This document shows, piece by piece, positions 21,208 to 27,247 of a stretch of DNA of 64,000 nt. The stretch covers positions 1,488,001-1,552,000 of the forward strand of contig CP004371.1 of NCBI GenBank assembly GCA_000597885.1, written 5' to 3'. Within the stretch, counting starts at the first letter, position 1; each line of letters starts with the position of its first letter. The stretch comes from Flammeovirgaceae bacterium 311 (lineage in GTDB: Bacteria > Bacteroidota > Bacteroidia > Cytophagales > Cyclobacteriaceae). The translations under genes and the position numbers were made by a program. The notes under the pieces are model-generated. The model was not told the DNA's origin. It did not search any database and was given only the letters and a program-made list of their open reading frames with translations.

Positions 21208-21310
21208 GCATGCAGCAGCTAAGTTTTGGCAATAATCAACAGGCTGCAAACTATTGCTCAAAATCTGGCACGGAGTTTGGTTTTACTCTTCTGAAATAAC
21301 TCTTCTCGAC

Positions 21311-21625
21311 ATGAAAAAATTACTTAAGATTGGTGTGGCCGGCCTTTTTGTGCTGGTAGCACTCCTTTTTTCAGAAAGTAGCAGTGCCTATGCTCAACAC
21401 AGGGTTAATGACCACCACCACAGCGACTATCACCATAAAAAGGGCGGACCTCCAGCCCATGGTTACCGGCACAAACATGAGCATAAGAAGAATAAGCATG
21501 ATAAACACTGTTGCCACTACGATAGCAGAAGCAGGCAGCACAGCCATCATGAGGATGTATATGCTAAAAGAAGGCCCCAGGCAAACTTACCCAAACGCAC
21601 CGTGGTAATTGTACATACCCATTAA
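21311..21625 (+). CDS. Small histidine-rich exported protein
   Basis: 104 residues from the ATG at 21311; a longer reading from 21254 only prefixes unconserved sequence before a clear signal peptide (KKLLKIGVAGLFVLVALLFS, then SSAYAQ). The mature part of about 75 residues carries 18 His, with clusters DHHHSDYHH, RHKHEHKKNKHDKHCCH and RQHSHHED, plus many Lys and Arg. No domain is recognised. The composition suggests metal (Zn, Ni, Cu) or haem binding in the periplasm, or a charge-rich surface protein; that is inference. It is divergent from guaA and has its own downstream region to a terminator at 21707. Confidence 0.78.
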   Translation: MKKLLKIGVAGLFVLVALLFSESSSAYAQHRVNDHHHSDYHHKKGGPPAHGYRHKHEHKKNKHDKHCCHYDSRSRQHSHHEDVYAKRRPQANLPKRTVVIVHTH

Positions 21626-22592: not shown

Positions 22593-23693
22593 CTACAACA
22601 TCCCTTTTGTGCTGGGTAAATTGTGGAGGCTGTTCACATCACGCTTTACTGCCATCCGTATGGAGCGGGCCAGTCCTTTAAAGATGGCTTCTATTTTATG
22701 ATGTTCGTTCTGCCCTTCGCATTTAATATTGAGGTTGCAGCGGGCGCCGTCGGTAAATGATTTAAAGAAATGATAAAACATTTCTGTTGGCACATCTCCT
22801 ACTTTTTCGCGCTTAAAATCTGCCTCCCATACCAGCCATGGGCGTCCCCCAAAATCAAGTGCCACCTGCGCCAGGGCATCGTCCATCACCAGGGAAAATC
22901 CGTAACGCTCCATTCCCCGCTTATCAAACAGGGCTTTGGCAAATGCCTCCCCCAGGGCTATGGCAGTATCTTCTATGGTGTGGTGCTCATCTACCTCCAG
23001 ATCTCCGTTTACACGCAAATAAATGCTGATGCCGCTATGCCTGGCGAGCTGGTCCAGCATGTGATCAAAGAAATGAAGCCCGGTCTTTATATCACTTTTC
23101 CCCTGCTCGTCCAGGGTGAGCTGCAGGTTAATCTGGGTTTCGCGGGTATTCCGCACCACACTGGCCTTGCGCAGGGGCAGCAGGAGGTGATGGGTAATTT
23201 CTTTCCAGCTGATGCTGCTAAGTTCTGCACCCTCTGCAGGCTCCGTTCCGATGAATATTGCCTTGGTACCCAGATTTTTAGCCAGCTGCACATCTGTTTT
23301 TCTGTCTCCAATCACATAAGAGTTTGCCAGATCCCATTCCTCGTTCAGGTACTGCCTCATCATGCCAATACCTGGTTTGCGTGTTTCCAGGCCTTCACGT
23401 TCAAAGCTGCGGTCTATCAGAATATCATCAAAAACAACTCCTTCGCCCGCCAGTGTTTTAAGCATTTTATTGTGGGCAGGCCAAAATGTATCTTCAGGAA
23501 AACTATCCGTTCCCAAACCATCCTGGTTGGTAACCATTACAAAGCTGTAATCAGTTAATTCCCGCAACTGGCGTAAGGCACCAATGGCACCGGGCAGGAA
23601 TTCCAGTTTTTCCAGTGAATCTACCTGAAAATCCTGAGGCGGCTCTGCGATAATAGTGCCGTCACGATCTATGAATAAAGCCTTTTTTTTCAT
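22593..23693 (-). CDS. hisB: Bifunctional histidinol-phosphatase / imidazoleglycerol-phosphate dehydratase
   Basis: A 366-residue fusion catalysing two steps of histidine synthesis. The N-terminal HAD-type phosphatase (about 1-165) has the DxD nucleophile in FIDRDGTII (Asp9, Asp11), MVTNQDGLG and the zinc-loop region, then [14 protein letters not shown]. The C-terminal dehydratase (about 175-366) has the metal-binding histidine motifs [31 protein letters not shown], and [12 protein letters not shown]. Length matches Enterobacteria and Bacteroidota fusions. It is the last histidine gene of this cluster, 63 bp after hisC; no hisH, hisA, hisF or hisI follows. Confidence 0.97.
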
Positions 23694-23756: not shown

Positions 23757-24824
23757 TTATGCCTGCTGTTTTAGCTTTTCAGGAAAGGTCGCCATCGCCT
23801 CCAGGAGCTGTTCGTTCTCGTCTGGAGTTCCTATGGTAATGCGGAGGCATTCTTCGCACAGCTGTACCCGTGAGCGATCGCGTACCACAATCCCTTTATC
23901 CAGCAGGAACTGGTACATAGCTCGTGCTTCCTGTACTTTAACAAGCAAAAAATTAGCATCGCTGGGATACACCTTTTCTACCACAGAAAGCCCTGTGAGC
24001 CCTTTTGCCAGCTGCCCGCGCTCATAGAGGGTGAGTGAAACCTGGCGTTTCATTTTATCGCGGTTTGTGATGGCCCTAAGGGCATGCTCCTGAGTCAGCA
24101 GACTGATGTTATAGGGGGGCTTGATCTTATTCAGGATATCAATCAGTTCTCTTGAGGCAAATGCCATGCCCAGGCGCAGGGCAGCCAGGCCCCAGGCTTT
24201 GCTGAAGGTTTGCAACACCACCAGGTTAGGAAACTCTTCCAGTCTGCAGGTCCAGGAATCTTCCTTACAGTAATCAATATAGGCCTCATCTACCACTACC
24301 AATCCCGTAAAATCCTTCAGAATCTGCTCAACGGCAGCTTTTTCCATCAGGTTAGCAGTTGGGTTGTTGGGTGAGCAGATAAACAATATTTTGCTGTTGG
24401 CATTGGCCTGCTGCAGCACTGCACTGGCATCCAGGCTAAAATCAGGGCGGAGCAGCACCTCTCTTACCTCTACTGCATTAATGTTTGCACTAACGCTGTA
24501 CATGCCATACGTAGGCGGCAGTATGATGATATGGTCTTCGCCAGGCCTGCAAAAGGCGCGGATGAGCAGGTCAATGGGTTCGTCGGAGCCATTGCCCAGG
24601 AATATCTGATCGGCAGGCACCTCTTTGAGGCGGGCCAGCATGCGCTTTACCCGGCGCTGGTGCGGATCGGGATAGCGGTTAAAATTATCGGCAGTGGCAG
24701 AACCAAAACTATTCTCATTGGCATCCAGAAACACATTGGCTTTTCCAGAAAACTCATCCCGTGCAGATGAATAGGGTGAAAGCTCCAGCAGGTGTGGGCG
24801 CAAAAGTTTCTGTAGACTAAACAT
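23757..24824 (-). CDS. hisC: Histidinol-phosphate aminotransferase
   Basis: A 355-residue class I/II PLP aminotransferase converting imidazole-acetol phosphate to histidinol phosphate. Visible motifs: LDANENSFGS and NRYPDPHQRRVK near the N terminus, FLGNGSDEPIDLLIRAFC, FICSPNNPTANLM, VVVDEAYIDY, and the PLP lysine in LQTFSKAWGLAALRLGMA (about residue 210). The start ATG at 24824 lies inside the 3' end of hisD (8-bp overlap), so the pair is translationally coupled. Confidence 0.96.
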   Translation of the reverse strand: MFSLQKLLRPHLLELSPYSSARDEFSGKANVFLDANENSFGSATADNFNRYPDPHQRRVKRMLARLKEVPADQIFLGNGSDEPIDLLIRAFCRPGEDHIIILPPTYGMYSVSANINAVEVREVLLRPDFSLDASAVLQQANANSKILFICSPNNPTANLMEKAAVEQILKDFTGLVVVDEAYIDYCKEDSWTCRLEEFPNLVVLQTFSKAWGLAALRLGMAFASRELIDILNKIKPPYNISLLTQEHALRAITNRDKMKRQVSLTLYERGQLAKGLTGLSVVEKVYPSDANFLLVKVQEARAMYQFLLDKGIVVRDRSRVQLCEECLRITIGTPDENEQLLEAMATFPEKLKQQA

Positions 24825-26109
24825 TTTCTTTGAGGGTATTTAAACGTACGGTAACAGCATATGCGTGAGCGTGCAGGTGCTCGGCCTCTGCCATTACCTG
24901 CACAACGGGGCCAAGGCGCCTCAGGCCCTCTGCGCTAAGCTCCTGAAAAGTAATTTTCTTCACAAAGCTATCTAATGATACCCCGCTGTAAGCCCTGGCA
25001 AAACCACTGGTAGGCAGGGTATGGTTGGTACCGGAGGCATAGTCGCCTGCAGATTCCGGGGTAAGATGGCCCATAAAAACAGAGCCCGCATTTCCCACCA
25101 TGTCTGCCACCTCTGCTGCATTTTCCACTGCCAATATCAGGTGTTCGGCGGCATATTCATTCAGGAAGTCCACTGCATCTTCCAGTTTTTTCAGAATAAT
25201 CAGCTTGCTGTTTGCCAGTGCAGCAGTGGCCATTTCCTTTCTGGGAAGTTCTTTCAGCTGCTTTTCAAGCTCTAAATTAACGGCTTCGGCCAGCAGGGGA
25301 TCAGCAGTTACAAGCATGGCCTGACTATCGGCTCCGTGCTCGGCCTGGGAGAGTAGATCTGCAGCAATAAAGGCTGGGTTTGCAGTTGCATCGGCAAGTA
25401 TTGCTACTTCAGAAGGGCCTGCAGGCATGTCGATGGCAATACCCTTTTGCGCGGCAACCAGCTTGGCAGCTGTTACATACTGGTTCCCTGGTCCAAAAAT
25501 CTTATCGACCTTAGGGATCGTTTCTGTGCCATACATCATGGCAGCAATGGCCTGTGCGCCACCTGTTTTATAAATCTTAGTGATTCCCAGCAGGTTTGCT
25601 GTATATAAAATGGCCGGATGCACCTGACCGCTACGGTTAGGAGGTGTACACAAAACCAATTCTTTACAGCCTGCAATACGTGCGGGTACGCCCAGCATTA
25701 ATACAGTAGAGAAAAGCGGGGCAGTACCTCCGGGAATGTACAGGCCTACCCTCTCAATGGGCACACTTTTACGAATACAGCGCACACCGGGCTGTGTTTC
25801 TACCACCAGTGGCTCCTGTAGCTGTGCCCTGTGGAATTTATCGATGTTGATGATGGCTTGTTCAATGGCGCTTTTAAGATCTTCATCTACTTCTGCTGCT
25901 GAAGCTTTTAACTCTTCAGGGGTAACTGCAAGACTTTCCAGATGCACCAGGTCAAATTCCAGCGCAAATTTGATGAGGGCATTGTCGCCATTACGTTTCA
26001 CCTTTTCCATGATTGGCTTTACAATCTTGCGCACTTTTTTAAGCTTTACGCTCGGGCGCTGCTGGTATTTAGCCCAATCTTCTCTTGGCGGATTTTTTAC
26101 AATTTCCAT
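24817..26109 (-). CDS. hisD: Histidinol dehydrogenase
   Basis: A 430-residue NAD- and zinc-dependent enzyme making the last two oxidations of histidine synthesis. Motifs include [79 protein letters not shown] (zinc and catalytic residues) and [17 protein letters not shown]. Length is standard. It lies 40 bp downstream of hisG and overlaps hisC by eight bases. Confidence 0.97.
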
Positions 26110-26149: not shown

Positions 26150-27007
26150 TTATAATATCATTTTTTCAATAGGAACCACCAGAATCCCTTCGGCGCCGGC
26201 TTCTTTCAGCTGGTCAATCACCTCCCAGAATTCATCTTCCTGTATTACCGAATGAACAGAATTCCATCCTTTTTCTGCCAGCGGCAGCACCGTTGGGCTA
26301 CGCATTCCCGGTAGTATGTTAATAATGTTTTGCAGCGCTGCCTCCGGAGCATTCAGCAGAATATACTTATTTTTCTGCCCTTTTTGCACAGCGTTGATCC
26401 GAAACAACAGTTTATCCAGTAATTGTTGCTTTTCCTGCGATAGTTGCCTGTTTCTGATCAGTACCGCTTCTGATTTATAAATGGATTCCACTTCTTTCAG
26501 GCCATTCATGAAAAGGGTACTGCCAGAGCTTACAATATCGCATATGGCATCAGCCAGGCCTATGCTCGGGGCAATTTCAACAGAACCACTGATTACGTGG
26601 ATGTTGGCTTTTACGCCCTGCTCCTGCAGATAATCTGCCAGTATTTTTGGGTAGGAGGTAGCGATATTCCCTCCCTGTAAGTCCTGTACACTATTATATT
26701 CTATGTGCTTTGGCACGGCCAGCGAAAGGCGGCATTTGGAAAAGCCAAGTTTTTTAGCCACTTCTACCTGCCTGCCGGTTTCGTACCATACGTTTTCTCC
26801 CACTATACCCAGATCAGCTACCCCGTCTTCTACATAACCTGGTATATCATCATCGCGCAAAAAGAGAAATTCAATGGGAAAATTGGCTGCCTCGCTTTTT
26901 AGGGTGCGCATGCCATTGTTCACTTTAATGCCACACTCTTTTATGAGGTTGAGCGAGTCTTCACTTAACCTGCCACTTTTCTGAATGGCTATACGTAATT
27001 TTTCCAT
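26150..27007 (-). CDS. hisG: ATP phosphoribosyltransferase, long form
   Basis: A 285-residue enzyme for the first, committed step of histidine synthesis (ATP plus PRPP). It is the long HisG_L form: the catalytic bilobal region (LRIAIQKSGRLSEDSLNLI, FLRDDDIPGYVEDGVADLGI, ISGSVEIAPSIGLADAICDI with the PRPP loop) is followed by a C-terminal regulatory domain of about 75 residues (YILLNAPEAALQNIINILPG, PTVLPLAEKGWNSVHSVI) that binds histidine, so no hisZ is needed. It is preceded by the histidine leader and attenuator, 90 bases between the leader stop and this ATG. Confidence 0.97.
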   Translation of the reverse strand: MEKLRIAIQKSGRLSEDSLNLIKECGIKVNNGMRTLKSEAANFPIEFLFLRDDDIPGYVEDGVADLGIVGENVWYETGRQVEVAKKLGFSKCRLSLAVPKHIEYNSVQDLQGGNIATSYPKILADYLQEQGVKANIHVISGSVEIAPSIGLADAICDIVSSGSTLFMNGLKEVESIYKSEAVLIRNRQLSQEKQQLLDKLLFRINAVQKGQKNKYILLNAPEAALQNIINILPGMRSPTVLPLAEKGWNSVHSVIQEDEFWEVIDQLKEAGAEGILVVPIEKMIL

Positions 27008-27097
27008 AATATGCCGGAAGGCCTGTTGAGCCTGCTTGGAAGAAGATTGCTAAAAGAAAGAAGAAAAAAAGGAAAGGCTTTGCCTGGAGCGCCTGGT
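27008..27097 (-). promoter_or_regulatory. Candidate his attenuator between leader ORF and hisG
   Basis: In the transcript, GCCUG (27103-27099, at the leader stop) can pair with CAGGC (27095-27091), or with an upstream CAGGC inside the leader (27124-27120). A second CAGGC copy (27086-27082) makes an AGGC-AAA-GCCU hairpin (27085-27075), followed at once by a pyrimidine tract with seven U (27070-27064). So three or four short elements can pair in exclusive ways and the last is followed by U, the layout of a transcription attenuator. The terminator stem is only four to five pairs, so folding work is needed to decide which form is the antiterminator. Confidence 0.65.
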
Positions 27098-27181
27098 TCA
27101 GGCATGATGGTGGTGCACTGCCTGCCAATGATGGGGAGCAGTTAAAAAATGACAATGATGATGATGTAGCAAAGCGATCAT
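27098..27181 (-). CDS. hisL: Histidine operon leader peptide
   Basis: A 27-codon ORF starting with ATG at 27181 and ending TGA at 27098. The predicted peptide contains 11 His: four in a row at residues 6-9, one at 11, two at 17-18 and four at 23-26 (MIALLHHHHCHFL, then TAPHHWQAVHHHHA). Such density directly upstream of hisG is diagnostic of a ribosome-mediated attenuation leader: low charged tRNA-His would stall translation and change RNA folding downstream. The sequence is unrelated to enterobacterial HisL except for the His codons. A TAnnTTTG element ends six bases before the ATG, so the leader seems to be translated from the very 5' end of the mRNA. Confidence 0.9.
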   Translation of the reverse strand: MIALLHHHHCHFLTAPHHWQAVHHHHA

Positions 27182-27187
27182 GTCCGG

Positions 27188-27217
27188 CAAAAATAACTAA
27201 GTTTTTGGAATGTGCAA
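27188..27217 (-). promoter_or_regulatory. Predicted his operon promoter
   Basis: On the minus strand TTG (27217-27215), 19 bases, then TATTTTTG (27195-27188): an exact match to TAnnTTTG with consensus spacing. It lies between the dps terminator and the leader ATG at 27181. The predicted start of transcription is about 27184-27185, three bases before the leader. Confidence 0.75.
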
Positions 27218-27220
27218 GAA

Positions 27221-27247
27221 AAAAAGCATCCGCCTGCCGGCGGATGC
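27221..27247 (-). terminator. Terminator after dps
   Basis: GCATCCGCC (27226-27234) pairs perfectly with GGCGGATGC (27239-27247), loop of four. On the minus strand the stem is followed by T7. It ends dps nine bases after its stop codon and insulates the his promoter. Confidence 0.92.

Follow-up and report, generated by a model that had tools for sequence, protein, structure and literature searches.

On the minus strand of a 64,000-nucleotide stretch from Flammeovirgaceae bacterium 311 (contig CP004371.1, positions 1,488,001 to 1,552,000; hereafter the window), a short open-reading frame (ORF) rich in histidine codons lies directly before hisG, the first gene of an operon of the order hisG-hisD-hisC-hisB (NCBIfam names; Table 1). 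The frame, MIALLHHHHCHFLTAPHHWQAVHHHHA, has 27 codons, 11 of which encode His in runs of 4, 1, 2, and 4, and 90 bases separate its stop from the hisG ATG at 27007 (minus strand), all as given in a preliminary description of this DNA. From the conservation of His codons, promoter spacing, and position in relatives and elsewhere in the phylum, a His-rich leader peptide before hisG is strongly supported, and we propose, at a probability of about 0.45, that it belongs to a ribosome-sensed attenuator of hisGDCB whose output is something other than a local intrinsic terminator.

When the 450 nt upstream of hisG were shuffled 5000 times by mononucleotide, the best ATG-initiated ORF of at most 60 codons contained a mean of 1.55 and a maximum of 9 His codons, compared to the 11 observed. 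The leader is preceded by an exact match to TAnnTTTG, which we take to be the −7 promoter motif of Bacteroidota, and from this box the 5′ end of the RNA would be expected within a few nt of the leader ATG. Among the loci compared below, which we group as terminator type, terminator-less type B, and the window's own group, the 25 nt preceding the leader ATG contain the motif in 46 of 64, 46 of 58, and 4 of 4 loci, respectively, and those preceding the hisG ATG in 0, 1, and 0. The exact box 6 nt before the ATG, together with the His-rich leaders before hisG in relatives, indicates at the level of sequence that the leader of the window is no accident.

Table 1 Positions of the his leader elements and operon genes in the window
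Feature	Position	Strand	Basis
Promoter −7 box TATTTTTG, exact TAnnTTTG	27188..27195	−	6 nt 5′ of leader ATG
Leader peptide ORF MIALLHHHHCHFLTAPHHWQAVHHHHA	27098..27181	−	ORF call; leaders conserved in relatives
GCUUUGC, 5′ strand of predicted long-range helix, shortly 5′ of first His run	27169..27175	−	Fold
First His run, CAT ×4	27155..27166	−	Sequence
Hairpin HP0, ACUGCU:GGCAGU with inner CCA:UGG, His pair in loop	27117..27142	−	Probability 0.98
Last His run, CAC CAC CAT CAT	27104..27115	−	Sequence
Hairpin HP1, TGCCTG-AAC-CAGGCG, overlapping the leader stop codon (27100-27098)	27090..27104	−	−6.4 kcal/mol, probability 0.89
GCAAAGC, 3′ strand of predicted long-range helix, just 5′ of pyrimidine tract	27077..27083	−	Fold; all three Cesiribacter species
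C/U-rich, G-poor tract with U7 at 27070-27064, candidate Rho-loading region	27038..27076	−	Composition; rut function inferred
hisG	26150..27007	−	HisG; TIGR00070 and TIGR03455 above cut-off
hisD	24817..26109	−	NCBIfam
hisC	23757..24824	−	NCBIfam
hisB, bifunctional	22593..23693	−	NCBIfam

Histidine leaders in related genomes

A hisG gene was present in 50 of the 59 genomes searched, counting the window's own, and in 37 of these 50 upstream regions the best His window (at least three His in eight codons) fell inside an ATG-initiated ORF. The other 13 regions comprised three whose best frame has no ATG and ten with no His window. The HisG proteins of Cesiribacter sp. SM1 (L002) and C. andamanensis (L003), whose genomes are listed in the same genus as the window's, are 96% and 86% identical to that of the window. 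The preliminary description had named a lack of conserved His codons in relatives as one observation that would refute the leader and attenuator, and the codons proved to be conserved.

In a sample taken at the level of the phylum, His leaders were common again. A core pattern gave 28 matches in 242 genomes, 26 of them directly 5′ of hisG. The two remaining matches lie inside a 407-aa open frame (L253) and directly before a 514-aa frame (L254), the latter, as judged by eye, within the terminal part of another frame, and both were taken as chance.

Leaders with and without a terminator

The leaders of the phylum exist in two forms, one with a strong intrinsic terminator and one mostly with none, and the window falls in the second. 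The terminator form, in which the leader is followed by a GC-rich hairpin and a U run, is found in Chitinophaga-type loci, in further loci of the phylum, and in part of the window's own family. A strict terminator scan was positive in 65 of 65 loci of this form, as well as in 20 of 20 hand-picked phylum loci (the phylum set consisting of 26 loci hand-picked from 43), and in 8 of 63 loci of the terminator-less form, none of these in the window's group (0/5); the contrast of 65/65 with 8/63 is a description of the split and not a blind test, since the class lists (A, B, and C) were assigned by hand after crude terminator flags had been seen. Seven of the eight strict matches are the stop-codon hairpin HP1 itself, located before an A/U-rich stretch, and the eighth (L012) overlaps the leader stop. 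Under loose settings, L004 alone among the five window-group loci scores, at its own stop-codon hairpin. Eight loci with odd or doubtful leaders (L011, L015, L039, L076, L084, L092, L105, and L129) were removed from list B without a fixed rule after a first strict scan, L153 was moved from A to B, and A was further reduced by L155; of all the B loci, only L084 and L105 had given a match in that first scan, and restoring all eight changes the strict count to 10 of 71.

In a maximum-likelihood tree of 96 HisG rows, labeled according to these lists, a single branch separates the 50 without a terminator from the 46 with one, with a support of 99/90 and a presence in 100% of 200 bootstrap trees. 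When L011, L015, and L039 were added, one change still sufficed, at a support of 77 (quick method). The tree omits loci for which only about 60 nt of hisG were available (L076-L135 and L255 on), and Chitinophaga was thinned. Given the wide spread of the terminator form, and with the HisG tree unrooted, the terminator was presumably lost in the window's group. Six loci of two more distant families, f23 (L260, L262-L264) and f41 (L266, L269), which are absent from the tree because of this 60-nt limit, were positive in 0 of 6 cases by the strict scan and 3 of 6 by the loose one, and three of the six have a hairpin at or near the leader stop. These terminator-less leaders may be separate cases.

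The genome of the window also encodes a trp leader, which was recognized by reading the sequence and then checked. Upstream of a trpE-like gene (L274), the peptide MKNRSVHMAWWWHTCKSCT with three Trp codons (2139-2080, minus strand) is followed by an 11-bp hairpin and a T run (2046-2021, minus strand), and by these features is a classical trp attenuator. This indicates that intrinsic attenuation as such is available to the organism and that the lack of a terminator is special to his. No clear leader was found at the ilvD and pheA loci of the genome.

A hairpin at the leader stop codon

In most terminator-less loci, a hairpin (HP1) begins at or directly after the last His codon and contains or overlaps the leader stop, and the HP1 of the window occupies this same position. 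Its sequence takes several forms, including ATTCCTC-GTAA-GAGGAAT in many loci, ATCTCTC-TTGA-GAGAGAT in Roseivirga, TGGCTCTCT-..-AGAGAGCCA in f22, and TGCCTGAACCAGGCG in the window; in HHSS and HHLS leaders (ATTCCTC and ATCTCTC), the right arms match. The mean folding z of HP1 was −2.8 in 58 type-B loci, with values below −2 in 74% of them, and it was weaker in the window's group (mean z −1.15, n = 5), where L138 has no hairpin at its leader stop.

Pairs were counted in an alignment reached in steps, as a wider-core MAFFT alignment (A1) was too gappy for this. The starting set consisted of hairpins downstream of the His codons that had a 4-nt loop and six or more pairs (40 loci, 34 distinct), from which L024, L042, L046, L048, L062, L066, L105, and L150 were dropped as the hairpin was not HP1 (A2, 26 rows), and L027, L089, L096, L107, and L111 as out of register in MAFFT (A3, 21 rows). 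In these 21 loci 98% of 147 cells were paired (0/500 shuffles as high), a figure biased by the fact that A3 contains only loci with an existing hairpin; the more useful figure is that of two-sided changes, with both sides altered in 13 cells compared to 3.6 in shuffles (0/500 as high). Shifting the pairing partner abolished the signal.

A further hairpin, HP0, often sits before the last His cluster. Its z was below −2 in 21% of the 58 type-B loci and in 3 of 5 window-group loci, compared to 0 of 64 terminator-type loci. A motif like CATATCGCCC follows the leader in 25 of 62 terminator-less loci versus 7 of 64 of the terminator type, 7-9 nt from HP1 in 23 loci with a measured HP1. As a separate observation, a CATATYG-like copy also occurs near the start of the leader ORF (L017, L034, L089, L191, and others; 23 of 62 by a loose pattern), the copies forming a direct repeat that flanks the His codons of terminator-less loci.

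Possible output of the leader

By the known logic of such leaders and the comparative evidence, the leader very probably acts as a sensor of charged tRNA-His. Transcription would start nearly at the leader AUG, and a shortage of charged tRNA-His would stall the ribosome translating the leader at its His codons. Early termination by Rho is our leading reading of the output, held tentatively and at somewhat less than even odds: after ribosomes have moved past, the His codons and the tract preceding hisG, both C-rich and G-poor as RNA, would serve for Rho loading, and a ribosome detained at the His codons would cover their part of the Rho site, allowing the polymerase to continue into hisG. That an entire clade within the Bacteroidota has swapped the intrinsic terminator of its His attenuator for Rho, with the His codons as part of the Rho-loading site, is a wider proposal that we consider doubtful. 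Under such a swap, His codons kept single-stranded between two hairpins would serve in Rho loading, and the waiting ribosome would shield the operon.

Rho sites are described, in the portion of PMC12121999 that deals with them, as YC-rich and unstructured with a high C:G ratio. The RNA in or after the leader is likewise unstructured, C-rich, and G-poor. The C minus G value of the leader-to-hisG RNA was 0.114 in the terminator-less form (n = 61; 0.109 with the dropped loci restored, n = 69), compared to 0.021 in the terminator type (n = 65) and 0.042 in upstream regions of other hisG genes (n = 73); p was 3e-16 and 1e-8, respectively, by the Mann-Whitney test, uncorrected for kinship. Type-B loci show no structure in the final 45 nt ahead of hisG (mean z −0.1, n = 58), and when 28 genes of the window are ranked by C minus G, the 90 nt upstream of hisG come second. 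The same genome encodes a rho gene. Together, the C-rich, G-poor RNA, the rho gene, and the intrinsic trp attenuation of the genome carry Rho as far as a leading inference and no further.

Several observations weigh against the proposed attenuator or its output through Rho. In the wider order, an ATG-initiated ORF containing four or more His within 8 codons was found in 15 of 60 stretches (L076-L135, in which hisG starts were placed using about 60 nt and some may be off), so that the leader is missing from many hisG genes of the order. The loose settings do give a score in 29 of the 63 terminator-less loci, in 18 at the stop-codon hairpin and in 11 at other sites, for which about 6 are expected from shuffling, so weak terminators are possible and what is absent are strong ones. 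As evidence for Rho, a C-rich, G-poor composition carries little weight, and the loci are moreover related to one another. Stalling at the first His run would also leave the tract 3′ of the leader exposed to Rho, and the Rho logic therefore requires that the His-codon segment lie within the Rho site. In Cesiribacter, a predicted long-range helix before the U tract may provide another termination route. With regard to HP1, 12 of the 13 two-sided cells come from six Roseivirga-type rows (two adjacent pairs) and one from L036, and the doubly changed pairs number 3, which 38 of 500 shuffles reach; with one clade dominating in this way, the covariation amounts to few independent events. Finally, the ACATATCGCCC-like motif of 25 of the 62 terminator-less loci is absent from Cesiribacter.

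The local alternative, as set out in the preliminary description, is a switch of mutually exclusive CAGGC/GCCUG pairings whose last hairpin, followed by seven U and traced here to AGGC-AAA-GCCT, would terminate transcription. The repeats are indeed present, CAGGC five times and GCCTG once (27103-27099) between 27124 and 27021, and placing a ribosome on the first His codon takes the probability of the last hairpin from 0.19 up to 0.78. This rise is in the wrong direction for read-through during starvation, however, and the CAGGCA:TGCCTG pairing in front of that hairpin, worth −7.3 alone, is given a probability of 0.0 when the leader is folded, HP0 (0.98) and HP1 (0.89) being favored instead. 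The stem itself has 4 bp and −2.9 kcal/mol, with UUCC between it and U7; the hairpin is gone in C. andamanensis (L003), and U7 is broken in Cesiribacter sp. SM1 (L002). With a weak, unconserved stem and the strict scan negative in all five window-group loci, the local terminator was rejected and the switch as a whole appears very improbable, so that the leader peptide of the preliminary description stands and its attenuator does not. A terminator of longer range, formed by GCUUUGC (leader codons 3-5) with the GCAAAGC that precedes the U-rich tract and enclosing HP0 and HP1 as branches, is better placed but still, in our judgment, unlikely. By covering GCUUUGC, a ribosome that stalls at the first His run would prevent the terminator and let hisG be read, and ribosomes reaching the stop would let the terminator form. 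In keeping with this, the predicted pairing probability in the three Cesiribacter species (L001, L002, and L003) is 0.78, 0.88, and 1.0, remains at 0.72, 0.76, and 1.0 with a ribosome at the stop, and drops to 0.0 throughout once the ribosome occupies the first His codon; GCAAAGC is also retained among Cesiribacter while flanking bases differ. With the ribosome on the last His run, by comparison, L002 and L003 keep the helix at 0.82 and 0.99, and in L001 its probability declines to 0.27. Against dinucleotide shuffles the helix scores z −0.7 in L001 and L002 each (−2.8 in L003), other pairings are better than it in the sister loci L004 and L138, no compensatory change was found, and a 7-bp stem closing an 85-nt loop would be slow for a terminator. 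Across the terminator-less set, 11 of 67 cognate leader-start/downstream pairs ranked in the best 5% (3.4 expected, p = 0.022), a small signal given that the terminator type yields 7 of 75 in the same mismatch test (3.8 expected, p = 0.068), and as a rule for the whole class such a helix is weakly supported.

Control could instead act on translation, with the leader ribosome opening or closing the hisG start, and passages of PMC9413887 report translational variants for other attenuators. Comparing a ribosome at the His codons with one at the stop, however, the unpaired probability of the hisG start changed by a mean of −0.006 across 57 loci of type B, where no value exceeded +0.1 and two fell under −0.1, and by 0.011 for the window's group (five loci), and this near-constant access disfavors translational switching and renders it improbable. 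Least probable of all is a leader with no regulatory role, either a relic or a small protein in its own right. The many leaderless hisG genes of the order would suit such an origin, but the His codons, the promoter spacing, and the stop-codon hairpin are all conserved, and one and the same genome places His codons before hisG and Trp codons before its trpE-like gene.

Neighboring features

The gene preceding the leader resembles dps (E 9e-17 to 3e-12, under the curated cut-offs). It is followed by a terminator-like 9-bp stem and T run at 27226-27247 (minus strand), directly 5′ of the leader promoter, found in a scan that yields 1.1 sites per shuffle. On the opposite strand, at 21254-21625 of the window, a His-rich ORF of 123 aa with a TTG start carries, by eye, a signal peptide (HHHSDYHHKKGG...HKHEHKKNKHDKH) and is possibly a metal-binding envelope protein.

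Comparison with known systems

Leader-peptide attenuation is textbook RNA control, known mainly in Proteobacteria. Of the traits of a ribosome-mediated attenuator, the conserved short ORF with consecutive codons for the pathway's amino acid is found here and the local intrinsic terminator is not. The leader would therefore behave like a leader-peptide attenuator, yet is outside the classical kind, as no intrinsic terminator lies between leader and structural gene. With the his operon leader of Enterobacterales and other Proteobacteria (RF00514) it shares a short ORF with consecutive His codons directly before hisG; it differs in having no covariance-model match at the gathering score, and in its promoter box almost at the AUG, its stop-codon hairpin, and the absence of a strong local terminator. 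Rfam returned nothing relevant at the gathering score for the whole window or for five other his-leader loci, and likewise with E up to 10, and gave no match for L274 at the gathering score. The trp leader of L274 resembles the his leader in its tandem codons for the pathway's amino acid and differs in its strong intrinsic terminator.

Within the phylum, the relevant sections of PMC9723704 report for Flavobacterium psychrophilum a conserved element 5′ of hisG without an Rfam match, as well as clues to leader-peptide attenuation before amino-acid operons, and differ from the present case in that no peptide or structure is given there for the hisG element. Our f26 loci, whose family we guess to be Flavobacteriaceae, are of the terminator type. 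Bacteroid-trp (RF01692) is named in the motif table of PMC2864571, and the portion of PMC2965389 that covers a His leader in bacilli contains no word starting with Bacteroid-, Flavobacter-, or Cytophaga. In the parts of the literature covered on leaders and attenuators in Bacteroidetes or before hisG, no description of the present leader was found. The abstract of Vitreschak et al. 2004 is said to mention candidate attenuators in Bacteroidetes/Chlorobi, and for this reason a his leader in the Bacteroidetes phylum may already be in print.

The leader points to an RNA element unmatched in Rfam and to tiny ORFs under the length of usual gene calling. With a phylum-wide sensor that one side of the HisG tree keeps without its output hairpin, the his leaders constitute a natural experiment in the rewiring of a switch, and the terminator-less form provides a clear test case for Rho-dependent attenuation by an amino acid. 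Should Rho indeed have replaced the terminator, the his leader would represent an amino-acid-tRNA attenuator that lacks a terminator hairpin. The tnaC leader ORF is associated with Rho-dependent control, and senses free tryptophan. As described in parts of the respective reports, translation of the leader ORFs speF orf34 (PMC6386406) and toiL (PMC12121999) also bears on Rho termination. The his leader would resemble tnaC, speF orf34, and toiL as a short ORF whose translation influences termination by Rho; it would differ from all three, of which speF orf34 and toiL sense arginine or antibiotics in those accounts, in responding to charged tRNA-His and in controlling a biosynthetic operon.
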